A program made the translations under genes and the position numbers. DNA of 32,873 nt from Dysgonamonadaceae bacterium (lineage in GTDB: Bacteria; Bacteroidota; Bacteroidia; Bacteroidales; Azobacteroidaceae), in assembly GCA_031263685.1 (NCBI GenBank), contig JAISFI010000350.1, positions 1 to 32,873 on the forward strand, in the 5' to 3' direction. The notes under the pieces are model-generated. The model made no database searches. It was not told the DNA's origin and saw only the letters and a list, made by a program, of their open reading frames with translations. Of this stretch, positions 10,110 to 29,032 are shown piece by piece. The first letter of the stretch is position 1. Every line of letters begins with the position of its first letter.

Positions 10110-10164
10110 ACACTTCATTTACGCTTTTTAGGATAAGAGCATATCATTGTTTCCCGAAAATGTA

Positions 10165-10230: not shown

Positions 10231-13014
10231 ATGTTATTGATCAAAAGAATTATTTTAATTTTCTTTGTTACAGGTGTTTTCGTCTATTACAGCCGGGCAG
10301 ATAAACCTGTTGCATCTTCGTCCGATTTGTGGGTACTGACGATAGATTCCGGTGCCGTTGTTCCTCCTCCCATCGACACGCTGTCCGTCGATTCTGCTGC
10401 ATTTCCTCTTCCCACCGATTCTATTGCCGGCGATTCCATCGCTGTCGATACCCTTTCACAGCGAAGAACACCGTTGCTGGAAGCGAAGGTGGATTATCAG
10501 TCGAACGATTCTATCATTATGACCGGCGATCATAAAATCTTCCTGTACGGAGAAGGGAATGTAAAATATCAGACCATGGAGCTGGATGCCGAATATATTG
10601 AGGTTAACATGGACAGCAGTTTCGTTTACGCTTCCTTCGCGTTGGACTCCATAGGCGATGAGTTCGGATATCCGGTATTCAAAGACGGCGATTCGGAGTA
10701 TGAATCCAAAACGATGCGTTATAATTTCAAAACTAAAAAAGGATTTGCCACGGATGGCATCACCCAGCAGGGAGAAGGTTATGTGACGGCAACGCGCATG
10801 AAAAAGATGTCGGACAACATCATGTATATGGCCGGCGGAAGATATACAACCTGCGATGATCACGATCATCCGCACTTCTATGTGTTTCTCACCAAAGCGA
10901 AAGTAAGAACCGGAAAGAACATTGTTACCGGCCCTGCCTATTTGGTGATTGCCGATGTTCCTCTGCCACTGGCGATTCCTTTCGGCTTTTTCCCGTTCAC
11001 CAGCAGCTACTCTTCCGGTATCCTGATGCCGACTTACGGCGATGAGATGGCGCGCGGATTTTATTTGCGGGACGGCGGATATTATTTTGCTTTTAGCGAT
11101 TATGTAGATTTGGCGCTCACCGGAGAAATCTATACGAAAGGCTCATGGGGACTGAATGCCCGGTCGTCTTACCGCAAAAAATATAAGTATTCCGGCAACG
11201 TCAATCTCGGCTACCTGAAAACTATTACCGGAGATAAAGGGATCGATTACAGTAAATCTACCGACTTCAGAATCAACTGGACTCATTCGCAGGATCCGAA
11301 AGCAAATCCTTACCAGGTATTATCGGCCAGTGTCAACTTCGCATCCAGTTCTTACGACCGGAATCAGATTAACAGCATCTATAATCCCAATGCTTATACT
11401 TCCAATACGAAGGCTTCAAGTATCAGCTATACACGCCGTTTCCCGGACAGTCCGTGGACAATTTCCGCCAATATGCAGGCTTCCCAGAGTAGCAGAGATT
11501 CGACGGTTTCCGTGACCTTGCCTAACTTGACGATCACGATGTCGACCGTATTTCCTTTCAGAAAGAAAAAGGCGATGGGAAATGAGCGATGGTACGAAAA
11601 AATCTCGCTGACCTACAATGGCACCCTGCAAAACAGTATCAATACCAAAGAAGATTTGCTTTTCAAATCCAATATAATCAGGGACTGGAAAAACAATATG
11701 GTACACAATATTCCGGTCAGCGCAACATTCAATGCCCTGAAATACATCAATATTACGCCGTCGATCAGCTACCGGGAACGCTGGTACACCAACCGGATCA
11801 CGAAAGAATATGATACGCAACTCCGGCGGGTTGTTCCCAAAGATACTATTTGGGGATTCAACCGGGTGTACGATTATAGCGCCAGCTTGGGGGTCAATAC
11901 CAAACTATACGGTTTTTTCAAGCCCTGGAAGGTATTTGGAGACAAGGTAGAAATGATTCGTCACGTGTTTACTCCGACCGTCAGCTTCAGCGCACGTCCG
12001 GATTTTGGAGCGGAACAGTATGGCTTTTGGCGTCAAATAACGTATATGGATACACGCGGCAATGTCCGTTCGGAATGGTACACGCCATTTCAGGAAGCGC
12101 CCGGAAGGGGGAAAAGTGGAGCCTTGAATTTCAGTGTGCAAAACAATCTGGAAATGAAAGTCAAATCGAACGCCGATTCGACCGGAGTGAAAAAAATCTC
12201 GCTGATCGACAATTTAACACTGGGCGGTAGCTATAATCTGGTAGCCGATTCGATGAAGTGGAGTGACTTCTCATTATCGCTTCGCCTGAAACTCTCCAAA
12301 TCTTTTACGCTGAATCTGAACGGTGTGTTAGATCCTTATACCTATAATGAACAGGGCAACAAACAGGATGTGATGCGCTGGGAAGACGGCAAAGGCATTG
12401 CCCGCCTGAAGAGTACGGGCACCTCATTTTCTTATACTTTCAACAATGAAACGATAAAAAAAGTCACCAGCCTGTTTACCGGAAAAAAAAGCGCAGAAGA
12501 AGCCTCATCGGAAGCTTCCTCCGAAGCAGATCCGACAAAAACAGAAGAACCCTCAACCGCAGAAAGCGCCCCCAAAAGCGGAGGCTTGAGAAAAGGGAAA
12601 AAAGATACCGGAGAATATGACGACGATGGATACCTGAAGACAAAAATCCCCTGGTCTCTGGCTTTCAATTATGGCTTGCAGTTGAATTATGACATGGCGT
12701 CCGACAAATTCAACGCCGTTAAACGGGAATATCCCTACAAGATTACACAGAATCTGGGATTTTCCGGAACATTAACTCCTACTCCCGGATGGAGTTTTAA
12801 TTTCTCGACCAGTTATGATTTTGATTCCAAGAAACTGGTTTATATGAATTGTAATATTTCGAGAAATCTGCATTGCTGGTCTATGTCGGCTTCTGTAATT
12901 CCGATTGGGCCTTATAAATCGTACAATTTCCATATATCCGTCAATTCTTCTTTGTTGCACGATTTGAAATACGACAAGAGCAGTAATTACAGAGATGCAA
13001 TGACGTGGTATTAG
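10231..13014 (+). CDS. lptD: LptD-like LPS assembly outer-membrane protein
   Basis: The 927-residue protein starts with a signal peptide (about residues 1-23). A low-complexity Ser/Asp/Pro stretch follows (about 40-75), then an OstA/LptA-like beta-jellyroll (about 83-210; IFLYGEGNVKYQTMELDAEY is typical). The segment PLPLAIPFGFFPF (about 248-260) is a hallmark of the LptD family at the entry to the barrel. The remaining 650 residues have the alternating aromatic/polar pattern of a large outer-membrane beta-barrel. It would insert LPS/LOS into the outer leaflet with the lipoprotein LptE, which is not in the window. A charged linker rich in Glu, Ala, Ser and Lys (about 752-795) interrupts the barrel and is probably an exposed loop. 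The gene seems monocistronic. Confidence 0.85.
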   Translation: MLLIKRIILIFFVTGVFVYYSRADKPVASSSDLWVLTIDSGAVVPPPIDTLSVDSAAFPLPTDSIAGDSIAVDTLSQRRTPLLEAKVDYQSNDSIIMTGDHKIFLYGEGNVKYQTMELDAEYIEVNMDSSFVYASFALDSIGDEFGYPVFKDGDSEYESKTMRYNFKTKKGFATDGITQQGEGYVTATRMKKMSDNIMYMAGGRYTTCDDHDHPHFYVFLTKAKVRTGKNIVTGPAYLVIADVPLPLAIPFGFFPFTSSYSSGILMPTYGDEMARGFYLRDGGYYFAFSDYVDLALTGEIYTKGSWGLNARSSYRKKYKYSGNVNLGYLKTITGDKGIDYSKSTDFRINWTHSQDPKANPYQVLSASVNFASSSYDRNQINSIYNPNAYTSNTKASSISYTRRFPDSPWTISANMQASQSSRDSTVSVTLPNLTITMSTVFPFRKKKAMGNERWYEKISLTYNGTLQNSINTKEDLLFKSNIIRDWKNNMVHNIPVSATFNALKYINITPSISYRERWYTNRITKEYDTQLRRVVPKDTIWGFNRVYDYSASLGVNTKLYGFFKPWKVFGDKVEMIRHVFTPTVSFSARPDFGAEQYGFWRQITYMDTRGNVRSEWYTPFQEAPGRGKSGALNFSVQNNLEMKVKSNADSTGVKKISLIDNLTLGGSYNLVADSMKWSDFSLSLRLKLSKSFTLNLNGVLDPYTYNEQGNKQDVMRWEDGKGIARLKSTGTSFSYTFNNETIKKVTSLFTGKKSAEEASSEASSEADPTKTEEPSTAESAPKSGGLRKGKKDTGEYDDDGYLKTKIPWSLAFNYGLQLNYDMASDKFNAVKREYPYKITQNLGFSGTLTPTPGWSFNFSTSYDFDSKKLVYMNCNISRNLHCWSMSASVIPIGPYKSYNFHISVNSSLLHDLKYDKSSNYRDAMTWY

Positions 13015-13034
13015 AATACCATAAACATGGTATT
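13006..13034 (+). repeat. Alternative hairpins at the lptD stop codon
   Basis: AATACCAT (13015-13022) can pair either with the upstream TGGTATT (13006-13012, ending in the stop codon) or with the downstream ATGGTATT (13027-13034). The two hairpins exclude each other. The second overlaps the -33 region of the next promoter. A weak terminator or chance are the simplest explanations. Confidence 0.45.
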
Positions 13035-13063
13035 GTCCAATATCTTAATCGTCCCTACCTTTG
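13032..13063 (+). promoter_or_regulatory. Promoter for the DUF4469 gene
   Basis: ATTG (13032-13035), 20 nt, then TACCTTTG (13056-13063) matches the Bacteroidetes promoter except for the first base of the -33 box. Transcription would start near 13070, about 26 nt before the ATG. Confidence 0.7.
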
Positions 13064-13095
13064 CCGCCACATTTAATTAATAACATAAAGCAAAA

Positions 13096-13833
13096 ATGGC
13101 CTCAGAAGAAAAGAACAATGTTTTCGTAGAACTCTACGATTTAACGCTTTCAGAGAGAACGGACGACCGCTTCGGTCGAGTAGTAACCACCAAGTCGCTG
13201 CACGAAGGCGATTTGATAAACATCGCCGTCAAGCGGCGAACAGATTTGAGTCCAACCACCCTTCGCGCATCGCTCGACATCCTGAAGGAAATCGCGATCG
13301 AGGAAATTGCCAACGGCGCGTCGGTACAGTTCGGGCTGGGCTTTTTCGGCCTCGACGTCAGGGGCGTCTTCATCGGCGACCACGCACAGTGGAATCCCGA
13401 AGTGAACAGCCTGCACGTGAAGACAGCCGCAGGCGTGGAACTTCGCACGGCAATCAAGGATGCGCATGTAAAGGTGCTTGGACTGGCAAACTCGGGAACC
13501 GTCGTCAATACCCTGATAGACAAGTCGTCGGGCGAAGAAAACACGCGCCTCACGCCGGGCGGAGGCGTAAACCTCACCGGCAGCAAAATCCGGATTGCGG
13601 GCGAGAGTGCGGACAACGGCATCCGCCTTATCGACCAGAACAGCGGCGTGGAATACCTTATCCCGATAGAATCGGTACTGGTGAACGACCCGAAAAAGGT
13701 AACGTTCATCGTCCCTGCCAACCTGCCCTTCGGCGACTACAAGCTGAGCCTCACCACGCAGTTTACAAGCGGGAGCGCTTTGCTCAAGGAGCCACGTCCG
13801 TACCTGTTCGATTATGTGCTGGCGGTGCAGTAA
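13096..13833 (+). CDS. HU-like DNA-binding / DUF4469 domain protein
   Basis: The 245-residue protein has no signal peptide. The first 125 or so residues resemble the HU/IHF-like domain found in Bacteroidales proteins (VELYDLTLSERTDD, then SLDILKEIAIEEIANG and VQFGLGFFGLDVRGVF). The C-terminal part (about 135-245) matches DUF4469, an Ig-like fold (VNTLIDKSSGEENTRLTPGG, then LPFGDYKLSLTTQF). Such proteins are widespread in Bacteroidales, and a nucleoid or DNA-associated role is assumed rather than proven. The gene is visibly richer in G and C than the flanking genes. It has a good promoter and a strong terminator of its own, so it is a single-gene unit. Confidence 0.75.
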   Translation: MASEEKNNVFVELYDLTLSERTDDRFGRVVTTKSLHEGDLINIAVKRRTDLSPTTLRASLDILKEIAIEEIANGASVQFGLGFFGLDVRGVFIGDHAQWNPEVNSLHVKTAAGVELRTAIKDAHVKVLGLANSGTVVNTLIDKSSGEENTRLTPGGGVNLTGSKIRIAGESADNGIRLIDQNSGVEYLIPIESVLVNDPKKVTFIVPANLPFGDYKLSLTTQFTSGSALLKEPRPYLFDYVLAVQ

Positions 13834-13854
13834 TTAATCAGTCTCTATTACTTT

Positions 13855-13897
13855 AAAACGGCGAGGCTCATCTGATAAAGACGAGCCTCGCCGTTTT
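13855..13897 (+). terminator. Intrinsic terminator after the DUF4469 gene
   Basis: A perfect 15-bp stem pairs AAAACGGCGAGGCTC (13855-13869) with GAGCCTCGCCGTTTT (13883-13897) around a 13-nt loop. The T run closing the stem suits rho-independent termination, and the A run on the other side would let it work in both directions. It starts 21 bp after the stop codon. Confidence 0.85.
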
Positions 13898-13905
13898 ATC
13901 GTTGT

Positions 13906-14009
13906 GAGCCTCGATGAATTGATCGTTTGAGCCTCGATGAATTGATCGTTCACCGCCGGTGAATTGATCGTTCACCGCCGGTGAATCGATCGTTCACCGC
14001 CGGTGAATT
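13906..14009. repeat. 22-bp tandem repeat array, about 4.7 units
   Basis: Units start at 13906, 13929, 13951, 13973 and 13995 (partial), with a shared core TGAATTGATCGTT. The first two units begin GAGCCTCGA, the same octamer as the right arm of the terminator just upstream. The later ones begin CACCGCCGG and create perfect hairpins TTCACCG-C-CGGTGAA at each junction. The array fills most of the 308-bp gap before GH105. No ORF here is convincing. The rest of the gap holds an A run near 14055 and the GH105 promoter. Confidence 0.85.
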
Positions 14010-14075
14010 AAGATGCGTTTTCATCATCTCCATCCTGTATTTGGCATAATACAACAAAAAAAAAAGCAAATAGAG

Positions 14076-14107
14076 TTGTCCAAATCCCCGTTCACACTGT
14101 AACTTTG
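14076..14107 (+). promoter_or_regulatory. Promoter for the GH105 gene
   Basis: TTG (14076-14078), 21 nt, then TAACTTTG (14100-14107) gives a good -7 and a partial -33 match. The start of transcription would be about 28 nt before the ATG at 14142. This places the start of the uptake locus here. Confidence 0.6.
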
Positions 14108-14141
14108 TACATTTACTCGTAATACATAATTTGTAATTTAC

Positions 14142-15287
14142 ATGAACTTCCCGTATCTATATTTATTCCTGTTTTTCATCGTAGGAGGAAATAACTATTG
14201 CAAGGCAGAAAATCACTTGCTTGAAAAATCATTCATACGGAAAGAATTGAAAAAAGTAGCCGACTGGCAAATCAGTCAATTCCAATATGAAAAAGAAGGA
14301 AGTCCCGGACACCTGCACGATCATGGGATTGATGCATGGACAAACGCCGTTTTATACATGGGTATGGCCGATTGGGCGAAGATTGCGACAAACGATTCTT
14401 CCAACTATTATAACTGGTTGTACAACATTGGAAGAAAAAGCCAATGGAAACTCGCCGAAAATTTCGTCCTCGTTCCTGCCTACAAGCTATATCATGCCGA
14501 TGAATTATGTATCGGACAGTTTTTCCTGGAAATGGGAAAAGTCTTTCGAGATGAGAACCTGATGACGGCCACCCGGGCGCGTGCCGACTGGATCATCGAC
14601 AATCTGCCGCAAGATAGCATCCTTAGCTGCAAAATACACTGGTCGTGGTGCGACGCCTTATTTATGGCGCCGGCTGTTTACTCCCGTCTTTCGGAATGGA
14701 CGCAGGATGATAAGTATCTTGCTTTCATGGATCAATGTTTCAAGCAAACATATCATCAGTTGTACGATAGCGGGGAGTGTCTCTTTTTTCGCGACAAAAG
14801 CTATTTTAACAAAAAGGAGAAAAACGGTCAAAAGATTTTCTGGGGAAGAGGAAACGGTTGGGTCGTAGCCGGGCTGGTCAATATCTTGAAAACCTTGCCG
14901 CCGGAATCTCCTTACCGTCCTTTTTATGAAAATCTTTTCAAAGAAATGCTGGAACGCCTGGTCGCGCTGCAAGACCCTTCGGGATGCTGGCATGCAAGCT
15001 TGCTGGACGCAGCAAGCTATCCGGCGCCCGAAACCAGCGCCTCGGCCTTGATTACCTACGCGCTTGCATTTGGACTCCGGATGCAGTTGTTGCCGGAAGA
15101 AAAATACCGTTCGGCAATGGAAAAAGCGTGGAGCGCTTTGCTCTCTGCCGTCGGCGACCGTGGTAAGTTAGGATGGGTACAGCCTATTGGCGCCGATCCA
15201 AAAAGCGTAACAAAGTATATGACATCTGCTTATGGCGTTGGCGCCTTCTTGATGGCAGGAACTGAAATTTACTTTTTGGTTAATTAG
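14142..15287 (+). CDS. GH105 unsaturated rhamnogalacturonyl/glucuronyl hydrolase
   Basis: The 381-residue protein has a hydrophobic N-terminus (residues 1-18) that should act as a signal peptide. Cys20 could be a lipid site but the lipobox is poor. The body follows the (alpha/alpha)6 barrel of GH105/GH88: HDHGIDAWTNAVLYMG near 59-74, WSWCDALFMAPAVYSRL (167-183) with Asp171 at the position of the catalytic Asp of YteR, and FWGRGNGWVVAGL near 234-246. GH105 enzymes remove the unsaturated uronic acid left at the non-reducing end after a polysaccharide lyase has cut. No lyase is in the window, so this substrate would have to be made elsewhere. The gene stands 83 bp before the M60 peptidase, which has its own possible -7 element. 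Confidence 0.85.
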   Translation: MNFPYLYLFLFFIVGGNNYCKAENHLLEKSFIRKELKKVADWQISQFQYEKEGSPGHLHDHGIDAWTNAVLYMGMADWAKIATNDSSNYYNWLYNIGRKSQWKLAENFVLVPAYKLYHADELCIGQFFLEMGKVFRDENLMTATRARADWIIDNLPQDSILSCKIHWSWCDALFMAPAVYSRLSEWTQDDKYLAFMDQCFKQTYHQLYDSGECLFFRDKSYFNKKEKNGQKIFWGRGNGWVVAGLVNILKTLPPESPYRPFYENLFKEMLERLVALQDPSGCWHASLLDAASYPAPETSASALITYALAFGLRMQLLPEEKYRSAMEKAWSALLSAVGDRGKLGWVQPIGADPKSVTKYMTSAYGVGAFLMAGTEIYFLVN

Positions 15288-15334
15288 GATAAAAGAAAGA
15301 GCAATAATGATAAAATAATATTTTGCGTGCGTTA

Positions 15335-15342
15335 TATCTTTG
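15335..15342 (+). promoter_or_regulatory. Possible -7 element for the M60 peptidase operon
   Basis: TATCTTTG fits TAnnTTTG and lies 28 bp before the start codon. No TTTG is at the expected upstream spacing; the closest is only 9 nt away. It may be the main start of the seven-gene run that follows, or the operon may be read from the GH105 promoter. Confidence 0.45.
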
Positions 15343-15370
15343 TATGAAGTAATTGTAAATATAAATCAAC

Positions 15371-17638
15371 ATGAAAAAAATCCTTATTCTTCTGAGTTTC
15401 TTATTATGCTTGTTTCCATCCTTTGTGCAAGCAGTAATTACCACACCTTACCTGACGTCTATTGACTTGAAACAAATCAACAGTGCAGATAAAGAACGGA
15501 CGCGTCTTTGTCAGGGACACCTGAAATTCGATCGTCAGCCTACCGGTTTCTTTGTCGACAGTGGAATGAAGGTCGTTGTAAATGTCGAACTGTTAACGCC
15601 AGCTTTCGATAACGCAATGCCGGTTATATCCATCGGCACCCTGGGTTTCAATGTTCCCTATTCGGGGAAAACAGAAGGACGCTCCAAAACAGACATTACG
15701 TTGAAAGTCGGAACGAATACCATCTCTGCCTCCCAGCATAAAGGCGGATTGATATACCTCAGCTTCGTCACAAACACCGGCAGATCGCCTCAAGGCTTGG
15801 CACGCATCACGTTCACCGAAGAAAGCGGACACGTTCGGGCGCCGCAATACGTTTATGGTCAAACAACCGACGGCGAATTTAAAGAAATGATGGATACCTA
15901 TCAAACGCCCGATGTTGTTTACTATTCCGATTATGCCGTAGTGGTAGCTACCCGTGAATCGGCCACCCAATATTCACGTAATTATAATAAAAAGAATTGG
16001 ATGGATGACATTCATACTTTGCTGGCCAATGAAGATTCCATCAGCGGGCTGGACGATAACGACCCGAATCCGCTGCATCACCGCATGAAGGCCGGAGAAG
16101 TACGTTATCTGCTGGTCGAAAACACCAGCACAAGCCCACATGCCAACAGTGCAGGTTATACCGGTTATCCGTCGGGCAGTCGCCATCGCTATCTTACGGT
16201 ATTTTCGCCAGGCACTGCGGGCGATAACAATTCCTGGATGTTAGGGCATGAAATAGGGCATCAGCATCAACAGCCGGCCTATATGATTCCGTTGTCAGTC
16301 GAGTCGACTGTTAATATTTATTCCTACGTAGAAGAACGATATATGGTCTCATCCACCGGAGAAACCTACAACCGCACTTCGGCCGCCCGCTGGCAAACGG
16401 CTCAAAATACTTATCTGAAATATCCGATCGAAAAACGCATTTACAATATGGACGACAAAACACTGGAAACGCTCATTGGCTTCAACCGCGATGAACTCCG
16501 CTTTATGCCTTGGGAACAATTATTCCTGCTGTTTGGCGACGATTTCTATAAAAACCTGCACCGGGTTGTAAGAGAAGAAAAGGTATCTACCGGCGGCAAC
16601 GACGACGAAAGGCGTTTTTACCTGATATGGAAAGCTTCGCGGGTATCGGGCTACGATTTGCGCGAATTTTTCAACCAATGGGGTATCCGGATCATGACGG
16701 ATAATACGCTCAAGAATAAACTGCAAACCTATTTCGAGAAAGCCTTGACATCGGGCAAAATCGTTGATTTACCGCGACCCATCGGCGAGATCATCGGCAT
16801 CACCGGACAAAAAATGCCGGCATGGGCGCCGTTGACCTTACGCGGAATAACGACCTCGACGCCGGAAAATGAAATCTTAGACCGCACGAACTGGACGATT
16901 ACTACCTCTATTCAAGGCGCTTCCGATGCTGCCATAGGTGGCGACAAACCGGATTATATCATTGATGGAAGTACTGTTACCGCTTTTTCTTTCGTCAAAC
17001 CGGGACGTAGTTATGGCGGCGTCAACGCACCTTCCAGCTATGTACCTTCTTTTACCATTGATATGCAAACGTCCGCCTCATTCAATTTCTTCAAATATCA
17101 ACACCGGAACAGCGGAAATCAGGAAGAAATGTTACGGGCAAGAAAACTCTCTTTCTATGGCAAAAACAGTGAAGCGGACGAATTTCGACCGATCAGGGAA
17201 AACATTGTTATCAACTATTCGGAAAATAAAGACGTCATACAGGTTGAATTTCCGGAAGTTTCCTGTCGCTATGTCCGCGTGGACATCAACGAGTGGAATG
17301 AATCGGGTGGGAACACGGTGCAAGTGGCCGAGTTCGATTTGGGAATCATTCGCCCGGAAATGAATACGAATGTACAACAGCCCCGGGAAAACGCGGAGAA
17401 ATGTGATGTTTACCCGAATCCGATTGTTTCCGGACATCCCTTTTTTGTCCGTGCCGGCGACGGATGGACAGGCGCGAACCTGAACATTTATACAGCTTCG
17501 GGACAAAACGTATGGAAACAGCGGCTTGTTGATACCATGAATGAAATCAACCTCTCCGTTCCGGAAGGTTTCTACTTCTTGCAGATAGAGAAAGACGTTC
17601 GTCGAACAACAAGCAAGTTGCTGGTGACGAAAAGATAA
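15371..17638 (+). CDS. M60-like zinc metallopeptidase with discoidin-like module and T9SS sorting domain
   Basis: The 755-residue protein has a signal peptide (about 1-21). The catalytic part contains HEIGH (293-297) and Glu311, giving HEXXH-13-E, inside the M60 signature HEXXH-X(8-28)-E. M60-like (enhancin-type) peptidases from gut bacteria, such as B. thetaiotaomicron BT4244, cut mucin-type O-glycoproteins. A discoidin/F5-8C-like module follows (about 505-658; NWTITTS ... FVKPGRSY ... RYVRVDINEW). The last 80 or so residues form a type A sorting domain (YPNP at 681-684, FYFLQIEK, ending LLVTKR), which directs export by the type IX system and surface attachment. The gene lies 26 bp before SusC1, so it is very likely co-transcribed with the uptake genes and acts on their substrate outside the cell. 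Confidence 0.88.
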   Translation: MKKILILLSFLLCLFPSFVQAVITTPYLTSIDLKQINSADKERTRLCQGHLKFDRQPTGFFVDSGMKVVVNVELLTPAFDNAMPVISIGTLGFNVPYSGKTEGRSKTDITLKVGTNTISASQHKGGLIYLSFVTNTGRSPQGLARITFTEESGHVRAPQYVYGQTTDGEFKEMMDTYQTPDVVYYSDYAVVVATRESATQYSRNYNKKNWMDDIHTLLANEDSISGLDDNDPNPLHHRMKAGEVRYLLVENTSTSPHANSAGYTGYPSGSRHRYLTVFSPGTAGDNNSWMLGHEIGHQHQQPAYMIPLSVESTVNIYSYVEERYMVSSTGETYNRTSAARWQTAQNTYLKYPIEKRIYNMDDKTLETLIGFNRDELRFMPWEQLFLLFGDDFYKNLHRVVREEKVSTGGNDDERRFYLIWKASRVSGYDLREFFNQWGIRIMTDNTLKNKLQTYFEKALTSGKIVDLPRPIGEIIGITGQKMPAWAPLTLRGITTSTPENEILDRTNWTITTSIQGASDAAIGGDKPDYIIDGSTVTAFSFVKPGRSYGGVNAPSSYVPSFTIDMQTSASFNFFKYQHRNSGNQEEMLRARKLSFYGKNSEADEFRPIRENIVINYSENKDVIQVEFPEVSCRYVRVDINEWNESGGNTVQVAEFDLGIIRPEMNTNVQQPRENAEKCDVYPNPIVSGHPFFVRAGDGWTGANLNIYTASGQNVWKQRLVDTMNEINLSVPEGFYFLQIEKDVRRTTSKLLVTKR

Positions 17639-17664: not shown

Positions 17665-20559
17665 ATGAAACATTTAATTTACACGAGACATTTAATTTAC
17701 AGGAAATGCAGGGCAATCCATACTGCCGCTTTCTTTCGCTTCTCTGCGATGACAGTGGCGCTGCTTCTTTCGGCATGGAATCTGCCTGCTCAAAAACTGC
17801 CGGTGTTATTGGGGGAACAGGACTCCATTACGCGTATACAATCGATATCTGCCGTTTCGGGCGACCGGTTGTTGCACCGCCCCACCTTCCAGATGGAAGG
17901 ATTTTTAGACGGCACATTGCCGGGTTTGTACGTAAACATGACGCAGGGATACACCACCAATCAAGCCTCTTTGCTTATGCGCAGACGCACCCTTTTGATT
18001 GTTGTAGACGGTATTCCCCGTTCGGACGCCAATATACCGGCCAGCCAGATAGAAACGCTTTCCATCATCAAAGACGGCTTGGGTTTAGCTGCCTGGGGAA
18101 TGTCGAGCGGCGACGGCGTTTTGTATATCAAAACCAAACGGGGTGATGTATCCGGGATGAAAATAGATTTTACCGCTCAGGTATCGAATGCTTCGCAGAT
18201 ATTTCGCCCCAAGTTTCTGGATGCCTACAGTTACGCGTCCCTGTTAAATCAGGCGCTAATCAATGACGGTGGCGTTCCGCTTTATACGGAAGATGATTTG
18301 ACGCTCTATCAAAACGGAAAGAATCCATATACACATCCCAATGTAGACTGGTATGATGTCCTGATGCGCAACAATGCGCCCATTCAGCAATATAACCTGA
18401 ATCTGTCCGGAGGAACTGTGGATGCACAATATTTTATCGACTTGAATGTTTTCGACCAGCAGGGCTTTCTGAAACAGGATAAATCGCTCAATGCCTACGA
18501 TACGCGCGAAAACTTCAAGAAATATTCCCTGCGTACCAACGTCGACATCCGTATCACCGACAGGACGCTTTTCCACGTCAATGTTTTCGGACAGATGTTC
18601 CGCGAAAACACGCCGGGTAAAACCATGATGGGAGATATTTATAAGGCTTTACACACGACCCCAAATAATGCTTATCCCATTAGAAACCTGCCGGCCGACG
18701 TCAACGGCTTCGGCGTCATGGAAGAAACATACGGCGGAAATATCAATTACACGAACAACCTGTACGCACAGTCACTCGAATCGGGATATACCATGTATCC
18801 GAAAACCGATTTCAATTTCGACCTGATATTGGAGCATCAATTCTCCAACTCGCTGAAAGGCTTATACGTAAAAGGCCTGTATTCTTATAATTCTTCCTAT
18901 CGCGAAAACATGAAGCGTACCAAAGGTTACGATATCTGGGAATACAGCAGGCCGGATAATGCCGATCCTGCCATACCGGAGAATGATCCGCGCTATTACA
19001 CCAAAAGACTGTCGGCAGCAACACCGGCCAATGCTACCGAATACAGTCGCGTGAATCGTTTGCAATATTTAGAATTGTCTACCGGCTATCATTTTGCTAT
19101 TGGGAAGAGTCATTCCAATACGAAATTAAGCTATTGGTCGAACGAATATGTGTTAAAAAGCGAAAATTTGCCGATGTATAAGGAAGGCTTCAATATCCAT
19201 TCGGAATACGATTTCGACAAACGCTACCTGGCGGAAGTGAGCCTCTCGACGATGCGCTTGAATTTTCTGAAGCCAGGACAGCAATGGGGTTTCTTTCCGG
19301 CAGCCGGTTTGGGTTGGAATATCGCTGCCGAAGATTTCTTCCCGGCGTCTGCGGTCAATGTCTTGAAACTGCGCACGACTTATGGATTAAACGGTAACGA
19401 TGGTACCGGCTACTTTTTTAGAAGCGGCACTGGAAACATGACCGACTATTATTTTACTTATATCAAGAGATATAAAGATGGCTCTAATGTTACCCTCGGA
19501 CAAACGGCTGCCGGCCTGAAAACCCTGGTCGAATCCGGATTGCCTTTCGTTTCGCAATGGGAAAAAAGCAAGCGCTGGGTTGTTGGCCTGGACATGGAAA
19601 CTGCCGATAAAACGCTAAGCGCCACGCTGGAGTACTTCAACAATCATCATTTTGATATACTGCAAGTCAACAGTTCTAAAAACAACAACGGTTTAATAGG
19701 TATCGATTCACCGAAAGAAAATATCGGCGCTTATCGTCTGCAAGGTGTTGAAGTGGATGTCGCCTACGGCAAACAATTCGGGAATTTCTCGCTGCAAACC
19801 CAGGCACATGCTACTTTTTATTACAGTGAAGTATTGGCAAACGGCGAGCCTGTCTTCCCCGAATCTTATATGCAACGGGTAGGAGCGCGGCACGGCGCTA
19901 CATTCGGTTATGTGGCCGACGGCCTTTTCCAGACGAACGAAGAGATTGCCGATTATCTGCAACACTATACCGTAGACGGATATATTCCGCAACCGGGCGA
20001 TTTGAAATATCAGGACCTAAATGGCGATTACATCATCGACGGCCGTGATATTCGGGAAATCACCACACGGGCGCCACGTATCGAATACGGTCTTTACCTG
20101 TCTGCCGGCTGGAAAGGCTTGGAGTTGTCCATGCAATGGTCTGGCTTGGCAAACAGCGAAAACATCATCAATGATTTGCCTTTCGCCATCAATGCATCGG
20201 ATGCTTACGGACAGGCTTGGGAAGATCACTTGGATTACTGGCGACCCGATAATCCTCAGGCAAGCTATCCGAGGGTATCTGCTTCCGGAAATTCCTATAA
20301 TGAGAGAACCTCTACTTTCTGGCTGAAAAACACTGGATACCTGCGCTTGAAGAACGTCGAATTATCTTATTCCCTGCCTGCCAAATGGGTATCGGCCATA
20401 CATCTGTCCGGTGTTAAGTTCTTTGTTGGCGCATACAACGTATTGACGCTGTCGTCCTTGAAAGATCGCGATCCGGAACTGATTAATTACTCCAATGACA
20501 CCTCCGGCATTGCACCTAATATCAAGGCCTATAATTTCGGTTTGAATGTTCAATTTTAA
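17665..20559 (+). CDS. SusC/RagA-like TonB-linked outer-membrane protein, lacking the N-terminal extension (SusC1)
   Basis: This 964-residue protein has a long N-terminus with a hydrophobic core (about 29-42, ending PAQ). The plug begins almost at once (SAVSGDRLLHRP, about residue 64; DGTLPGLYV; VVDGIPRS; ending VLYIKTKRG near 160). The usual carboxypeptidase-regulatory-like domain and a clear TonB box are missing, and the plug motif normally reading like IRG is LLMRR. The remainder is a 22-strand-type barrel with typical SusC elements (YSLPAKWV, then YNVLTLSSLKDRDPE near the end). The partner SusD1 starts 13 bp later. It may move substrate with a changed TonB link or act as an accessory pore. 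The start is uncertain: the DNA repeat ATTTAATTTACA occurs twice at the first codons, and Met29 is an alternative. Confidence 0.85.
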   Translation: MKHLIYTRHLIYRKCRAIHTAAFFRFSAMTVALLLSAWNLPAQKLPVLLGEQDSITRIQSISAVSGDRLLHRPTFQMEGFLDGTLPGLYVNMTQGYTTNQASLLMRRRTLLIVVDGIPRSDANIPASQIETLSIIKDGLGLAAWGMSSGDGVLYIKTKRGDVSGMKIDFTAQVSNASQIFRPKFLDAYSYASLLNQALINDGGVPLYTEDDLTLYQNGKNPYTHPNVDWYDVLMRNNAPIQQYNLNLSGGTVDAQYFIDLNVFDQQGFLKQDKSLNAYDTRENFKKYSLRTNVDIRITDRTLFHVNVFGQMFRENTPGKTMMGDIYKALHTTPNNAYPIRNLPADVNGFGVMEETYGGNINYTNNLYAQSLESGYTMYPKTDFNFDLILEHQFSNSLKGLYVKGLYSYNSSYRENMKRTKGYDIWEYSRPDNADPAIPENDPRYYTKRLSAATPANATEYSRVNRLQYLELSTGYHFAIGKSHSNTKLSYWSNEYVLKSENLPMYKEGFNIHSEYDFDKRYLAEVSLSTMRLNFLKPGQQWGFFPAAGLGWNIAAEDFFPASAVNVLKLRTTYGLNGNDGTGYFFRSGTGNMTDYYFTYIKRYKDGSNVTLGQTAAGLKTLVESGLPFVSQWEKSKRWVVGLDMETADKTLSATLEYFNNHHFDILQVNSSKNNNGLIGIDSPKENIGAYRLQGVEVDVAYGKQFGNFSLQTQAHATFYYSEVLANGEPVFPESYMQRVGARHGATFGYVADGLFQTNEEIADYLQHYTVDGYIPQPGDLKYQDLNGDYIIDGRDIREITTRAPRIEYGLYLSAGWKGLELSMQWSGLANSENIINDLPFAINASDAYGQAWEDHLDYWRPDNPQASYPRVSASGNSYNERTSTFWLKNTGYLRLKNVELSYSLPAKWVSAIHLSGVKFFVGAYNVLTLSSLKDRDPELINYSNDTSGIAPNIKAYNFGLNVQF

Positions 20560-20572
20560 ATATCAACGCAAC

Positions 20573-22393
20573 ATGAAATATCCGCTTACAAATATAATGT
20601 GCCGTTTGCCGTTCATCCTTGCCTGTAGCCTGCTTTTCTTTTTTCCGGCATGTTACAACTTCGAGACAGAACCTTATGAATGGAATTCGGAAGATAAAGT
20701 GTTGAGTCTGCAAGATTCGACTGAGAATAGCGCTATCAAGAAACTGTTTTACGCAACGTATTTGGATTTGCCTTTGTTGCATATCCGTTTACAATCTTCC
20801 AGCAGTTACCTGGATGCCGCTACCGACGACGGTGTGCCTACCAAAAGCGTTGGTGGCAACGGCAGTCTGGATAATTACCGTAACGGTTTGTTATCGCCGG
20901 GCAACATCGCCGATTTGGATGGCGATGCTTGGGACAGGAATTATAGTGGTATCCGCCGCGTCAATCTTTTTCTGGAAAAGATACAACTCTTTCCAGCCTC
21001 TACTCAGTTGCCTGTCGAGAGAATCGTTCGCATGAAGGCGGAAGCCCGACTGCTACGCGCTTACTACTACTTTGAACTGATGAAACGCTGGGGAGGCGTT
21101 CCAATGCTGGGCGACCAGGTATTGGATGTAAACAGCGATGTGCATATTCCCCGCAGTACGATCGACGAAGTCTCGAATTACATCATCAGCGAAATCAGCC
21201 CCGATGTAACGGCCTGTCCGAATAGCTGTTTCCCCGATTTGCACGCAGCGCAGTCTACGGCTTCGGAAGACCCGACCGAGATCGGACACGTTAACCAGGG
21301 GGTCGCTTTGGCCTTACTTTCCCGCCTGAAGCTCTACCTGGCAAGTCCTCTGTATAATCCATCCAACAATCCCGACAAATGGCGCGATGCGGCAAATGCT
21401 GCCGATACGCTGATTAAATTGGGTGTATATGAGTTGTATACAGGCGCCGACATGACCAAATTATTCGCCATGAATGCCAGTGACTTTCCTCACAAGGAAA
21501 TGATTATGATCAAGGAGATGGGCAGCAACTCTGCCATAGAACAGAAGAATAGTCCCTCCGGATATACTTATGGTACAGCTTCCGGTGCGCAGAGCACTGT
21601 TCGTTCGGAAGGAGCAACCAGTCCCAGTCAAAATCTGGTAGACGCATTTCTCATGATCGACGGCAGATCTATCTTTGTAGATTACGATCCGGAAAAAGGA
21701 ATAGATCCGTCTGTCAATTATAATCCGCAAAATCCCTATACCAATCGGGATCCGCGTTTGGCGCGTACCGTTTTTCACCACAACCAGCGATGGTTGAAAA
21801 GGATGATAGAAGTTTACGATGGCGGACAAGACAGGGGAGCCGTTAAAGGCGCTGTTTACACGCAAACCGGCTATTACTTGAGAAAGTTCCTGGGCGATAA
21901 TACGAGTACCGAATCTTATACAGCGCTTTATCATCATTACCAGATTTTCCGCTACGCCGAAATACTCTTGAATTATGCGGAAGCCGTCAATGAATATGAT
22001 CCGGGCAATGACGCCGAGATCACAAAAGGTTTGATTGCCCTGCGGAAACGGGCAGGTATCCGTGCCGGTGCAGATGCACGTTACGGATTGCCCGCTACTT
22101 ACACGCAAGACTTGATGCGCCGGATTATCCGCAACGAACGCCGGATTGAACTGGCTTTTGAAGACCATCGCTTCTGGGACATCCGCCGCTGGAAAATCTG
22201 CGATGAAGGCGATGCCGTGATGACGAAACCGGTCAGAGGCGTACGCATTACGCGCGATGGCACGAGGTTTACCTACGATTATGTTGATGTACGCAACTCC
22301 CGTTTTGCGTCGCACATGTACTGGTATCCGATTCCCCGTTCGGAAATGCAAGGCAATACCAATCTGGTACAAAATCCGGGTTGGAATTATTAA
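20573..22393 (+). CDS. SusD/RagB-like surface lipoprotein (SusD1)
   Basis: I start at 20573, which gives 606 residues with a proper lipoprotein signal (Cys27 in FFFPAC). An in-frame ATG at 20546 would add nine residues and overlap SusC1. SusD proteins cap the SusC barrel and bind glycans or peptides at the surface. Family hallmarks are clear: KAEARLLRAYYYFELMKRWGGVPM near 160-185, the helical TPR-like body, YAEILLNYAEAVNEYDPG near 460, and RRIIRNERRIELAFEDHRFWDIRRWK near 520-545. The C-terminus QNPGWNY is typical. It forms a pair with SusC1 (13 bp apart) and is followed by SusC2 after 21 bp. Confidence 0.93.
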   Translation: MKYPLTNIMCRLPFILACSLLFFFPACYNFETEPYEWNSEDKVLSLQDSTENSAIKKLFYATYLDLPLLHIRLQSSSSYLDAATDDGVPTKSVGGNGSLDNYRNGLLSPGNIADLDGDAWDRNYSGIRRVNLFLEKIQLFPASTQLPVERIVRMKAEARLLRAYYYFELMKRWGGVPMLGDQVLDVNSDVHIPRSTIDEVSNYIISEISPDVTACPNSCFPDLHAAQSTASEDPTEIGHVNQGVALALLSRLKLYLASPLYNPSNNPDKWRDAANAADTLIKLGVYELYTGADMTKLFAMNASDFPHKEMIMIKEMGSNSAIEQKNSPSGYTYGTASGAQSTVRSEGATSPSQNLVDAFLMIDGRSIFVDYDPEKGIDPSVNYNPQNPYTNRDPRLARTVFHHNQRWLKRMIEVYDGGQDRGAVKGAVYTQTGYYLRKFLGDNTSTESYTALYHHYQIFRYAEILLNYAEAVNEYDPGNDAEITKGLIALRKRAGIRAGADARYGLPATYTQDLMRRIIRNERRIELAFEDHRFWDIRRWKICDEGDAVMTKPVRGVRITRDGTRFTYDYVDVRNSRFASHMYWYPIPRSEMQGNTNLVQNPGWNY

Positions 22394-22414: not shown

Positions 22415-25400
22415 ATGAAACAGACAGATTATTCATACATATATTATCGTTTACTGTTCATCGTCCTCGTACTGTTCGTTCCTTTTTTCCTGCAAGCGCA
22501 AACGCTGGTGAAAGGTGTTGTGGTTGACGACGAAAATGAACCGCTTATCGGCGCTTCCGTCATCGAAGACGGTTATCCTGCCAATGGGACTGTTACCGGC
22601 CTTGATGGAAATTTCAGCTTGAAACTGAATGCCTCCCAATCGAGCGTCAAGATACAGTACCTGGGTTATAAAACCGTGACAGTGACTCCTCCAGCAAGCG
22701 GAGAGATGCGCGTTGTCTTATTTCCCGACGAGCGGGTGTTGCAGGAAGTAGAAGTTGTGCAGGTTGGTTTCGGATCGAAATCGCGTATTTCGAATGTTGC
22801 CGCTATCAGTCAAATCAATGCCGCGCAAATCCGGCAGATACCCACTACGTCCATTCAAAACGCTTTGGCGGGACGTTTGCCCGGCTTGTTCCATTTGCAG
22901 GGAAGCGGTCGTCCGGGAGAAGATGCGGCAAAAATATTTATCCGGGGTATCGGTACCTTTGCCGACGTGGAACACACGCCGCTGGTACTGATCGACGATG
23001 TGGAATCGGATATAGAAACGCTTTCGCGCCTTTCGGGCAATGAAATAGAAGAAGTTTCTATCCTCAAAGACGCCGGCAGTACCTCCATCTTCGGTATCAA
23101 AGGCGCCGACGGGGTTATCCTGATCACTACCCGCCGCGGAAAGGCTGGAAAACCCAAGCTTACGTTCCACGCAAACTTCGGATTGCAGCGACCGACGTAT
23201 AAAAATGAGTTTCTCAATTCTTACGAAAGTTTATCCCTGCTCAAAGAACTTCACCTGAACAACGGAAATGAAGCAGCCCTGCAGCAGGAACGCTATTTCA
23301 GCGACACAGCCCTGGAACATTACCGCCTGGGCGACGATCCTTACCGTTATCCCGATGTTAACTGGTATGACTTGTTGTATAAAAAGTTTTCGCTTATGCA
23401 GCAATATACTGCCGACATACAGGGCGGATCGGAAAAAGTGAATTATTTCGTTTCCTTTGCTTATCTGGATCAGGGTGGCTTATTCAAAGATTTGGATAAA
23501 CCGGAAGATTTTAATAATGATTATTATCAGCGTCGTTACAACCTTCGTTCCAATATTGATGTCAAGATAACCAAAGATTTCCTGATGAAGTTAAGCGCCA
23601 ATGCTATTCTGGCAGAGATTAACGAGCCGAATTTGCCTGCTACGCGTGGTAGCGATATCAATATCTTCAGACGCATACTGGGCGCCGGTATCGCATCTTA
23701 TCACTATCCGGCCTATAATCCGGATAATTCTTTCGGCGGATACACGGGAACGTATATCAACCCGCTGGCATTGATGACCTATGGCGGTTATAAACGGAAA
23801 TTCGACAATAATCTGAACGGTAATCTTATGTTGGAACATCAGTTGGATTTTATAACCAAAGGATTGAAAGTGCGGGGCGTGCTGGGGCTGACCAATACTT
23901 GGGGTTTTAACCGGAACCTGACGCGGAGCGAAGTGCTGGATTATTATTACGAGCCGGAAAAACAAACTTATACGCCGGTAATTACCAACCAGTATATGCT
24001 GCCGCTACTGGAAGTGGCTTCCACCGGTATTACGCCGGTGATACAAATCAATACCCGTTTCGATTTGTCTTACAGTCGCCGGTTTGGGGCGCACGCTTTC
24101 GATGCCCTGCTCCTGGGCAACTGGTACACCCGCCGTTCGGGTAAAGATAATCAGCGGAACTCGATCAATTATTCGGGACGTATCGGCTATAACTACGACG
24201 CCCGGTACATTGTTGAATTTAGTACGGCCTACAACGGATCGGACGAGTTTACCAAAGATAACCGCTTTGATTATTTCCCGGCGCTAAGCTTGGGTTGGAA
24301 CCTGGCAGAGGAGCCTTATATGGGAGATTTCTTCCGGAGAATTAAAATCGACATGCTCAAGTTGAGAGGATCTTACGGTTTGAGCGGATCCGATAAAATT
24401 GCCGGCAGCAATTACGCTTATCAGGAAGCTTACGGACGGATCATGGACTATTATTTCGGAGAAACACCTGCCAAAATGGTTGCATTGGGATTGTGGCAAT
24501 ATCCGAATCCGGATATGAAATGGGAATCCGATAGAAAGACAGATGCCGGTATCGACCTCCGCATGTTCAACAACCGCCTTTCGGCCACTGTGGACTATTT
24601 TTACAATAAACGGACAGATATTCTGGCGCAGCGGGCAGGAATTGTGTACTATGCAGGTTTCCTGAATGTCTTTGCCGATAAAAACAACACCGGGTCGGCC
24701 ACCAAAATAACCATACTTCCGCCCTCCAACATTGGTCGTACCGAAAACAGTGGCTGGGATGGCGAGGTTTCGTGGCGCGATAAGTTTAGTGATAACTTCT
24801 CGTATTTTGCACGCGGCACCTTTTCCTTTGCGAGAAATAAAATTCTGTATATGGACGAAGCGCCCAGCGAATACAAGCTGAGTATGCAAACCGGACGTCC
24901 TATTGGAACTATCTTCGGATTTGTTGCCGACGGTTTCTATGATTCTTACGAAGAAATAGCGAACAGTCCCTACGATGCCAACGGACGCGATATACAGCCG
25001 GGCGACTTGAAGTACAAAGACATCAGTGGGCCGAACGATGCGCCCGACGGTATCATCAATGAATACGATAAAGTCGCTATCGGAAATAAGCGACCCGATT
25101 TCATCTACGGCTTTTCATTGGGATTTTCGTACGGGGATTTCGATTTCTCCACCCTCTTTCAGGGAGCCACCGGCGCTTCGGTCAGCATAGAGGAAATGTT
25201 GCGGCTGGCCGACGGTTCCAACTCCATTGTAGGTAGCTCCAACGGTAAGCCGATGCCGATTCATCAGGGACGGTGGACGTATTATGACGACCTCGGCAAC
25301 AAAGTCTCCGCCCCGGAACAGTTGATGAGCATGAACAGCGACGCTACTTATCCGCGACTGCTGCCCGGAAACAATAAGAACAACGCTCAATCGACGTTCT

Positions 25401-25642
25401 GGTTACGATCGGCCAACTATGTGCGCTGGAAAAGCATCGAAGTAGGTTATAATCTGCCTCAAAAATGGCTAAATAAAGCTGGCGTAAGCAATATCCGTTT
25501 CTACTTTACCGCCCATAACCTGTTTACCTGGTCGGGATTGAAAGAGTATCAAATAGACCCCGAAAGTTCTCTGGAAGATAATCCACTGGCTACCTATCCG
25601 CAACAGCAGGTGTATAACTTTGGCTGTCATATCTCATTTTAA
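22415..25642 (+). CDS. SusC/RagA TonB-linked outer-membrane transporter (SusC2)
   Basis: The 1075-residue protein has the complete SusC layout. The signal peptide ends near residue 29 (FFLQAQ). A carboxypeptidase-regulatory-like domain follows (about 32-110; VKGVVVDDENEPLIGASV, then QYLGYKTVTV). The TonB-box region (LQEVEVVQVGFGS, about 108-121) and the plug come next (SIQNALAGRLPGL, KIFIRGIGTF, VSILKDAGSTSIFG, GVILITTRRG at about 232-241). A large barrel ends with YNLPQKWLNKAGV and NFGCHISF. It imports bulky nutrients across the outer membrane using TonB energy, with SusD2 (18 bp downstream) as its lid. Compared with SusC1 it keeps all parts needed for normal function, so it is probably the main transporter of the locus. 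Confidence 0.95.
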   Translation: MKQTDYSYIYYRLLFIVLVLFVPFFLQAQTLVKGVVVDDENEPLIGASVIEDGYPANGTVTGLDGNFSLKLNASQSSVKIQYLGYKTVTVTPPASGEMRVVLFPDERVLQEVEVVQVGFGSKSRISNVAAISQINAAQIRQIPTTSIQNALAGRLPGLFHLQGSGRPGEDAAKIFIRGIGTFADVEHTPLVLIDDVESDIETLSRLSGNEIEEVSILKDAGSTSIFGIKGADGVILITTRRGKAGKPKLTFHANFGLQRPTYKNEFLNSYESLSLLKELHLNNGNEAALQQERYFSDTALEHYRLGDDPYRYPDVNWYDLLYKKFSLMQQYTADIQGGSEKVNYFVSFAYLDQGGLFKDLDKPEDFNNDYYQRRYNLRSNIDVKITKDFLMKLSANAILAEINEPNLPATRGSDINIFRRILGAGIASYHYPAYNPDNSFGGYTGTYINPLALMTYGGYKRKFDNNLNGNLMLEHQLDFITKGLKVRGVLGLTNTWGFNRNLTRSEVLDYYYEPEKQTYTPVITNQYMLPLLEVASTGITPVIQINTRFDLSYSRRFGAHAFDALLLGNWYTRRSGKDNQRNSINYSGRIGYNYDARYIVEFSTAYNGSDEFTKDNRFDYFPALSLGWNLAEEPYMGDFFRRIKIDMLKLRGSYGLSGSDKIAGSNYAYQEAYGRIMDYYFGETPAKMVALGLWQYPNPDMKWESDRKTDAGIDLRMFNNRLSATVDYFYNKRTDILAQRAGIVYYAGFLNVFADKNNTGSATKITILPPSNIGRTENSGWDGEVSWRDKFSDNFSYFARGTFSFARNKILYMDEAPSEYKLSMQTGRPIGTIFGFVADGFYDSYEEIANSPYDANGRDIQPGDLKYKDISGPNDAPDGIINEYDKVAIGNKRPDFIYGFSLGFSYGDFDFSTLFQGATGASVSIEEMLRLADGSNSIVGSSNGKPMPIHQGRWTYYDDLGNKVSAPEQLMSMNSDATYPRLLPGNNKNNAQSTFWLRSANYVRWKSIEVGYNLPQKWLNKAGVSNIRFYFTAHNLFTWSGLKEYQIDPESSLEDNPLATYPQQQVYNFGCHISF

Positions 25643-27556: not shown

Positions 27557-29032
27557 ATGTATACAATGAAATTAAAGTTAATGAAATTAATGTCAGAGAG
27601 ATTAATATTAAAAATAGCCTGCTGCTGCGGCCTTGCATTGCTTTGGAACGCCTGTCGGGAGGAATACTATACAGTGAATGATTCGTTTTACGACGATAAG
27701 GCGATTGAAGTGAAAAACCCCCTGATAGACGATACCCTGCGCATAGAACTTTACAATACAGACCTGATATCCATACAGGAGGTATCCCGTCCGGATATTG
27801 TATTCGATCCGAGAGCTTTTATTTATCAGGTAGAATACGACAGTATTCTGTCGGTTTCCGACGAAGGAGAAATCCAGCCGCAAAATAGAGGTGTTACGAA
27901 AATTTCGATTATCTTCCGTGCCAACGCCGCTATCGCCACTTCGATGGTAGTGGAAGTACATAAAGACTATCATGCGGTAGAACGCTTGCAAGTGCCTTCT
28001 GCTGTGTCCGGATTATTGGTAGAACAGGATTATACGCTGAATCTGAGTCCGTATATTATTGTATATCCGAGTTATGCCGACAATAAACAACTGCACTTCA
28101 GTCTGGATGCCGCTTCCCAAGCGTTTGCTTCCATTAGCGAAGACGGTGTGATCACCGGTATTGCACCCGGTCCGATTACTGTCCATGTTGTTTCCGACGA
28201 TAATCCGCAGGTGACTGCCGACGCACTGTTGAACGTGATTACTGAAATTGAAATTACCGACATAAAACTTCATGCCCAACTGGATAATATAACTTTAGGC
28301 CTGGACGAACAAATTGACCTGAATGTATTGACTTCGGTCACACCAGCCAATGTGAATGAGGTAAACAGGAGGCTGCACTTTGCCTTGACCGATGGTGCGG
28401 ATGCTGTTAGCCTGACCGACGGATTGCTTACCGCCGTCGGCGCCGGCGTGGCTCATCTGACGGTTTCCAGTAAGAATAATATCACCAAAACATTTACAAT
28501 CCATGTAGATGCGGCTAAAAAGGATTTGACCCGTGCATTCTGGACGGTAACAACTTCGGCTTCTTATTCAACGGGCTTGAATTACGTGGTGGACGGCACT
28601 ACCGGAAAACCGGAAGATATGTTTGATGACAACCCCGCTACCTTCCTTTCATTGGTGAAGTCCGGGAAAACCTATAATAATTCGGCCGGTCCGGCCTCCG
28701 GTGGATACAATCATTTTATTGTAGATATGAGAGTATCCTGCACGTTTAGCGCGATTAGATGGAATCACCGATCGGGCAATTCTTACAACTATTTGAGGAT
28801 TTGGGGGATTGATTTGGAAGGAAGTCCTGACGGCGAGAACTGGAGTATCATTCAACAGTCGGTTGCGATACCAATTAAAGAAGGAGCAGACGCCACCCGT
28901 TATGAAATCCCGTTGAACGCCGAACATACATATCGTTACGTAAAGGTAACGCTGACGCAATGGAGTGACAATTCCGGTGGATCTACCAGCGGAAGTACGA
29001 TGCAAATCGGAGAATTTGGATTGATTCGCTGA
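27557..29032 (+). CDS. Surface lipoprotein with Ig-like repeats and a discoidin-like domain
   Basis: The 491-residue protein carries a lipoprotein signal (LALLWNAC, Cys33). The start is unclear because ATGs at 27557, 27566, 27581 and 27590 are all in frame and keep the signal. Three Ig-like (BIG2-type) segments follow (about 55-135, 140-228, 233-318), each with a hydrophobic strand before a glycine turn (DEGEIQPQNRG, EDGVITGIAPG, TDGLLTAVGAG). A discoidin/F5-8C-like module ends the chain (about 325-491). It is placed as the surface glycan-binding protein normally found after susD. The end module looks homologous to the one in the M60 peptidase of the same locus. The ligand is unknown. Confidence 0.78.
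   Translation: MYTMKLKLMKLMSERLILKIACCCGLALLWNACREEYYTVNDSFYDDKAIEVKNPLIDDTLRIELYNTDLISIQEVSRPDIVFDPRAFIYQVEYDSILSVSDEGEIQPQNRGVTKISIIFRANAAIATSMVVEVHKDYHAVERLQVPSAVSGLLVEQDYTLNLSPYIIVYPSYADNKQLHFSLDAASQAFASISEDGVITGIAPGPITVHVVSDDNPQVTADALLNVITEIEITDIKLHAQLDNITLGLDEQIDLNVLTSVTPANVNEVNRRLHFALTDGADAVSLTDGLLTAVGAGVAHLTVSSKNNITKTFTIHVDAAKKDLTRAFWTVTTSASYSTGLNYVVDGTTGKPEDMFDDNPATFLSLVKSGKTYNNSAGPASGGYNHFIVDMRVSCTFSAIRWNHRSGNSYNYLRIWGIDLEGSPDGENWSIIQQSVAIPIKEGADATRYEIPLNAEHTYRYVKVTLTQWSDNSGGSTSGSTMQIGEFGLIR

Follow-up and report, generated by a model that had tools for sequence, protein, structure and literature searches.

The window analysed here, the whole 32,873-nucleotide stretch of contig JAISFI010000350.1 from a Dysgonamonadaceae bacterium (assembly GCA_031263685.1), carries two SusC/D importer gene pairs in tandem, susC1-susD1 and susC2-susD2, and our analysis is concerned with the product of the first gene, SusC1. 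The gene is one uninterrupted frame of 964 codons, and its product, judged from its sequence, is a genuine SusC/RagA homologue that begins where others carry the TonB box. Its parts are as follows.

17665-20559, + strand: SusC1, a SusC/RagA homologue of 964 residues without N-terminal extension (NTE) and without canonical TonB box.
17665-17790, + strand: SusC1 signal peptide, residues 1-42, with likely cleavage after A42 and before Q43; AQ follows the hydrophobic stretch in all six orthologues.
17791-17838, + strand: SusC1 segment at the TonB-box position, residues 43-58, QKLPVLLGEQDSITRI, with a proline in the middle and no canonical box.
17839-18144, + strand: SusC1 plug, residues 59-160, conserved, with a hairpin about eight residues shorter after M105-R106-R107.
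18145-20556, + strand: SusC1 beta-barrel, residues 161-964.

Membership in the SusC/RagA family is indicated by the NCBIfam model TIGR04056, which SusC1 matches with 535.7 bits against a cut-off of 368.25. The alignment places residues 49-964 on model positions 86-981, whereas SusC2 begins at model position 3, and a Pfam scan of SusC1 recovered neither a CarboxypepD-reg domain (the PF13715 extension) nor a Plug match above threshold. Because the TIGR04056 match starts late and Pfam finds nothing, the extension and a clear TonB box are truly missing. To score the TonB-box position, we used a 9-column profile (EEVVVVGYG) built from 43 SusCs then taken as solitary, the same set that was later scored, with 12 or more counted as canonical. 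SusC1 scored -12.3, below the median of shuffled sequences (-4.5). An earlier reading made from the sequence alone had described about 20 residues between signal peptide and plug, with neither a carboxypeptidase-regulatory-like domain nor a clear TonB box; the likely cleavage site lies 16 residues before the plug, the domain is absent and the lack of a box holds for the canonical form. The same reading had credited SusC2 with the domain, the box and the usual IRG; SusC2 has CarbopepD_reg_2 and Plug matches in Pfam and a profile score of 16.2.

An AlphaFold2 model of SusC1, computed from a 16-row alignment of proteins from the window and from public loci, had a mean pLDDT of 80.5 and a pTM of 0.79, with the plug inside a large barrel, and its closest fold among 998 aligned PDB chains was the levan SusC 8a9y_A (Z 38.0, rmsd 3.2 over 823 residues). 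Residue 44 of the model superposes on chain residue 84 of 8a9y_A, and the Ton box of the levan SusC is given as residues 82-88, DEVVVTG (PMC7782687). If cleavage occurs before Q43, mature SusC1 would thus start where the TonB box of its relative starts.

The plug had been called degenerate, and this was not borne out. No other part of the protein is as well conserved, the TIGR04056 alignment runs through the plug, and its residues mostly have pLDDT values of 70-90 in the model. Pfam Plug matches five of the six members of the orthologue alignment (best E 5e-9), the window protein itself being below threshold. The replacement of the usual IRG motif by LLMRR is real but mild, as the arginine R106 is invariant in 16 aligned sequences and the equivalent motif in the five orthologues is MRG, MRQ, LRG, MRR or LRG. 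The true oddity of the plug is the shortened hairpin right after the arginine motif, which is common to SusC1-type relatives.

Orthologues of SusC1 (loci fetched for comparison are numbered L) were found at 58-64% identity in a Candidatus Symbiothrix metagenome-assembled genome (L068, the same as L084), in Dysgonomonas sp. BGC7 (L069) and in two genomes (L085, L086) of the same family, and at 40% identity in a third genome (L087). All six frames, that of the window included, are intact, lack the NTE and stand in the operon order susC1-susD1-susC2-susD2. Mean identity over the 15 pairs of SusC1 sequences was 0.65 in the plug, 0.53 in the barrel, 0.33 in the TonB-box segment and 0.26 in the signal peptide, compared to 0.71 in the plug, 0.585 in the barrel, 0.63 in the TonB-box segment and 0.47 in the NTE of SusC2 at the same six loci. 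These regional identities indicate that the SusC1 plug is under strong selection, and that its TonB-box segment is almost as variable as the signal peptide. Even the residual LLG-Q motif of this segment is absent in L085.

These data bear on two simple explanations of the odd N-terminus. SusC1 could be a decaying duplicate of SusC2, given that a domain and a motif are missing, that Pfam Plug misses the protein and that the frame of a relative from this genome (C217, L090) is interrupted by a stop. However, five orthologues are intact besides the window gene, the plug is more conserved than the barrel and SusC1 belongs to a deep, separate clade rather than being a recent copy, so that we regard decay as very improbable. 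The suggestion that SusC1 is losing function fails on the same grounds, the odd layout having been kept in orthologues of only 40-64% identity. An artefact, such as a wrong start codon, an assembly error or a cropped gene with the NTE lying upstream, might be suspected in a genome of 446 contigs, but just 26 bases separate the susC1 start from the end of the gene before it, and the same layout recurs in five other loci, which makes this barely conceivable. Decay, a wrong start and a hidden NTE were therefore all rejected.

The second pair in the window, and the SusD gene that follows susC1, are arranged as follows.

20546-22393, + strand: SusD1, lid lipoprotein (SusD_RagB, 187.9 bits), directly following SusC1.
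22415-25642, + strand: SusC2, full-length partner SusC of 1075 residues with NTE, TonB-box-like segment and plug.
22502-22741, + strand: SusC2 N-terminal extension, CarboxypepD_reg-like, about residues 30-109.
22748-22774, + strand: SusC2 TonB-box segment VEVVQVGFG (63% mean identity among six SusC2 orthologues).
25661-27541, + strand: SusD2, lid lipoprotein.

The start of susD1 lies 14 bases inside the end of susC1 (20546-20559), and this overlap suggests translational coupling of the two genes.

Every NTE-less SusC that we could evaluate was one of two. The fetched loci contained 39 untruncated candidates, from which L109 was dropped because its NTE lies upstream of the first Met. Each of the 38 that remained is accompanied, at a distance of 1.66-2.16 kb, by another SusC in the same orientation, with a recognised SusD in between in 37 cases, L119 being the one pair where none was recognised. 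The neighbour carries an NTE in 37 of the 38, and the neighbour in L111, which is cut by a contig end, was counted as paired. Two more NTE-less SusCs from a sample of 148 genomes of the phylum (L193, L194) are also paired, for a total of 40 out of 40. The NTE-less protein comes first in the group of SusC1 and second in most others, and the TonB-box-less SusC is first in 17 of 50 pairs. The tandem loci were collected by likeness to SusC1, and L084-L103 and most of L151-L160 were chosen with the neighbour already visible; the loci for which it was not visible beforehand (L111, L112, L157, L194) are all paired. Genome-wide SusC counts are lower bounds, and the phylum sample was scored for five candidates per genome. 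According to the sequence-only reading, an abundance of ordinary SusCs with the layout of SusC1 would have counted against it. The layout did prove common, yet each instance found stood in a tandem pair and none was solitary.

Genes cut by contig ends or broken were left out of these counts (L104, L105, L107, L110, L113-L117, L121-L123 and the second SusC of L075), as were the C217 gene with the inner stop in L090 and the split SusC2 of L072. The former (L090:4511-7405) is another NTE-less SusC of the genome of the window, and has one in-frame TAG beside an intact full-length SusC. In L072 (14480-17601), from Bacteroides reticulotermitis, the SusC2 partner consists of two overlapping frames and SusD1 likewise of two, and the SusC1-type gene, here with an NTE, is intact.

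The asymmetry extends to the TonB box itself. Median profile scores were 27 for solitary SusCs and -3.7 for NTE-less ones, the latter being close to the shuffled sequences (99th percentile 7.4). Canonical scores were obtained by 42 of 43 solitary SusCs, by 57 of the 78 in the fetched loci that bear an NTE, and by none of the 38 NTE-less. The low-scoring NTE-bearing proteins are mostly members of pairs in which the partner is canonical, and L045, the single low "solitary" row, belongs to the L173 pair. Some rows of the solitary control set lie on short contigs, and three members of the set, L048, L049 and L052, proved to be partners in pairs (loci L189-L191). Among 52 pairs less than 2.8 kb apart, one canonical box was present in 47, two in one (L170) and none in four (L069, L085, L086, L087), where a stronger member scoring 9 to 12, as in L119, was counted as canonical if its partner was lower. 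In the four pairs without a canonical box, the SusC2 segment reads VEIVRQGFG, VEIVRMGFG or QVKIVGAYG. Ten pairs added later, of which L171, L172 and L173 were judged by reading the segment and the other seven by score, comprise eight asymmetric (L173, L189, L190, L191, L193, L194, L195, L196) and two symmetric ones (L171, L172). Thus, exactly one canonical box is present in 55 of 62 close tandem pairs, two in three and none in four.

A tree of 149 SusCs was inferred from 852 columns of plug and barrel, with the NTE and TonB-box columns excluded. All TonB-box-less SusCs except that of L119 form one exact split of 53 rows (SH-aLRT 99), and the TonB box changes state twice on the tree, the NTE 12 times. 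The clade and these changes indicate that, in this sample, the loss of the box is old and occurred about once, with L119 separate, and that the loss of the NTE is later and repeated. The members include SusCs from Bacteroides, Dysgonomonas, Mucilaginibacter, Pedobacter, Chitinophaga and Prolixibacteraceae. The 50 partners in turn fall in a clade of 58 (SH-aLRT 90). Among the remaining eight are L075 and L090, which also belong to pairs but are truncated or broken. From the tree we predicted that solitary-looking SusCs in the partner clade should have a TonB-box-less neighbour, and this was the case for three of the four with readable contigs (L189, L190, L191). The fourth, L054 (L192), has no such neighbour, the next SusC being canonical and 3.3 kb away, and the rows L025 and L188 were left out of this check since their contigs end too early. 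The patristic distances of the two partners are correlated (r 0.838 over 50 pairs), with none of 2000 permutations as high (maximum 0.17).

Two sets of loci appear to lie outside this pattern of descent. The L119 pair (7479-15435) comes from another family of the order and stands outside the main clade; its NTE-less member has no TonB box and the neighbour has EGVVVTALG, apparently an asymmetry of independent origin. A spaced arrangement, in which a SusC-SusD pair is separated by other genes from SusC'-SusD', was observed in L177 (2655-14488) and L178 (1995-13787), on contigs C8 and C150 of the genome of the window, and in L174 (2095-13257, genome G110). In all three the distal SusC' has an NTE and no recognisable TonB box, and the arrangement seems to have reached this asymmetry independently.

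Taken together, we lean, if only modestly, toward the view that SusC1 belongs to an old TonB-box-less clade kept as the tandem partner of a TonB-box SusC, and that it is likely the unpowered half of the importer, a mixed dimer being the likeliest form. The missing NTE and canonical box, the intact and conserved plug and barrel, the constant pairing, the asymmetry and the single clade can be read from the sequences; that SusC1 does not engage TonB, that the dimer is mixed and that labour is divided are what we infer. A mixed complex with SusC2, one of the possibilities raised in the sequence-only reading, is our leading hypothesis, since the tandem pairing is constant, the pairs are asymmetric and the trees of the partners mirror one another. 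In this model, SusC1-SusD1 would be folded, lidded and selected, although TonB itself would probably not pull it open, and the TonB contact would be carried by SusC2-SusD2. Since SusCD complexes are dimers (White 2023, PMC7618045), SusC1D1 and SusC2D2 would most likely join in one mixed dimer with TonB power on the SusC2 half only, while the SusC1 half may bind, hold or present the glycan, or give specificity.

In the levan SusC of B. thetaiotaomicron, deletion or mutation of the TonB box gives a growth defect like that of a SusD deletion (Gray 2021, PMC7782687), and an aromatic lock between residue 89 by the TonB box and plug residue 191 is described as relaying substrate loading (PMC7618045). 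The column presumed by position to correspond to residue 191 is aromatic in 33 of 33 solitary SusCs and 62 of 62 canonical SusCs from pair loci, and in 5 of 17 SusC1-type rows. The simplest reading is that SusC1 can dispense with signalling to TonB and works beside a SusC that cannot. An action of SusC1 without TonB, which had also been suggested, draws on sequence evidence: a segment that is absent or unrecognisable and nearly unconstrained.

Several observations weigh against this interpretation. Two canonical boxes are present in the tandem pairs L170, L171 and L172, all of them outside the clade, and within the subfamily of SusC1 the SusC2 box is itself divergent in the four pairs where neither box is canonical. 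The clade result counts these four intermediate-box SusC2 rows as TonB-box-bearing by judgement, and mirrored trees would also arise from a stable operon inherited whole. A relaxed box pattern is matched by 13 of 54 TonB-box-less SusCs (versus 85 of 95 canonical ones), and many share a motif of their own at the box position, [VI][DN][VI]x[YF]G. TonB boxes are in general loosely conserved and bind largely by backbone, so that a low profile score is no proof against TonB binding. Finally, either cusCD pair of the F. johnsoniae chitin locus alone partly restored growth (PMC5127042), which would argue against an obligate mixed dimer if the two pairs, known to us by description, are asymmetric.

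Some of these points would fit a different explanation, in which SusC1D1 is a separate TonB-dependent transporter with a non-canonical box, perhaps for a particular TonB paralogue, and the pair provides two substrate ranges. The [YFH][GEDQ] anchor is kept by 38 of 54 TonB-box-less SusCs, many as the shared motif at the same place, which argues that this N-terminal end is often still constrained, and the aromatic at lock position 89 (PMC7618045) is retained in 40 of 54. On the other hand, the segment is nearly unconstrained in the SusC1 family (33%), SusC1 itself has a proline in it and L085 lacks it, and a non-canonical box alone leaves the canonical box of the partner in 55 of 62 pairs unexplained. 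A variant TonB box thus seems possible for many relatives and least likely for the family of SusC1, and we consider the explanation as a whole unlikely, though deserving of attention.

A conserved plug and barrel, an own SusD lid and the lack of a canonical TonB box would also be expected if SusC1D1 were a TonB-independent, lidded glycan-binding scaffold that forms its own homodimer and feeds SusC2D2 or surface enzymes, and surface proteins do assemble on SusC (PMC7618045). Such a scaffold does not directly explain why the SusCs are paired 1:1 in tandem, however, and we think it distinctly improbable, although the data gathered here are compatible with both it and the mixed dimer. A mixed, one-sided importer would fit the pairing, and from the asymmetry one may suspect that in many double importers only one half is powered. 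More tentatively, and with a little less than even confidence, we suggest that many double SusC/D loci in Bacteroidota may encode half-powered mixed dimers with the TonB-blind half drawn from one old clade, the same asymmetry having had at least one further, separate origin (L119; probably also the spaced pairs L174, L177 and L178).

The remaining genes of the locus are as follows.

14142-15287, + strand: GH88 family hydrolase, upstream in the locus, with orthologues in L084 and L086.
15371-17638, + strand: M60-family peptidase bearing an F5/8-C domain and a T9SS tail, directly 5' of susC1, with orthologues in L084 and L085.
27557-29032, + strand: probable surface glycan-binding protein (Big_2, F5/8-C-like) in the same operon.

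Four of the five orthologous loci (L069, L084, L085, L086) have a relative of the putative glycan-binding protein 3' of the pair, and a GH88 or M60 gene stands beside the pair again in L084, L085 and L086. Neither was recognised near the L069 pair, which is preceded by a C1-family peptidase gene. As a guess, the substrate is perhaps the glycan of a glycoprotein. Further downstream, 29365-32313 encodes a protein of 982 residues, the sole match of which is a weak one to choice-of-anchor Q; L084 has a counterpart at 54% identity. The long-first pairs L096, L097 and L101 adjoin GH30_2-like hydrolases, so that asymmetric pairs occur beside more than one kind of enzyme; a xylan Xus identity considered for these three was dropped, as the neighbouring enzymes are GH30_2-like and not GH10.

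Among known systems, BtuB and other small TonB-dependent transporters resemble SusC1 in having no NTE and a plug and barrel soon after the signal peptide (BtuB Z 33). They carry a TonB box, however, and function with it, whereas SusC1 shows none. The peptide importer RagA (PDB 6sml, 6sli) has a similar fold (Z 36.1), and we know of no second SusC pair in its solved complexes. Like SusC1, RagA belongs to a lidded, SusCD-like importer (PMC10404256). Two SusC/D pairs in one locus, as in the window, are described for the chitin locus CusCI/DI-CusCII/DII of F. johnsoniae (PMC5127042) and for the xylan system XusA-B-C-D (PMC7848910), likened here by description, and the passages concerned mention no asymmetry in TonB box or NTE. 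Double SusC/D loci are thus already known, and the asymmetry within pairs is new as far as could be found in open-licence papers, a search of which with chosen wordings returned no description of it between tandem SusCs. The existence of two pairs in some Bacteroidota glycan loci has been called puzzling (PMC5127042); should one of the two partners be without the TonB handle, the pairs would not be redundant copies, and the question becomes one of simple genetics. The closest comparison is the levan SusC BT1763 (PDB 8a9y, 6zlt), which shares with SusC1 a barrel with plug, a SusD lid and the same order of parts from the TonB-box position on. Unlike SusC1, which does not have the PF13715 extension of levan-type SusCs and stands in a double pair, BT1763 possesses both an NTE and a TonB box, DEVVVTG; strains mutated in one or the other fail on levan, with no growth within 24 h once the NTE is deleted (PMC7782687). 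If our interpretation is correct, SusC1 would be a naturally occurring SusC able to dispense with a domain needed for growth on levan in B. thetaiotaomicron.

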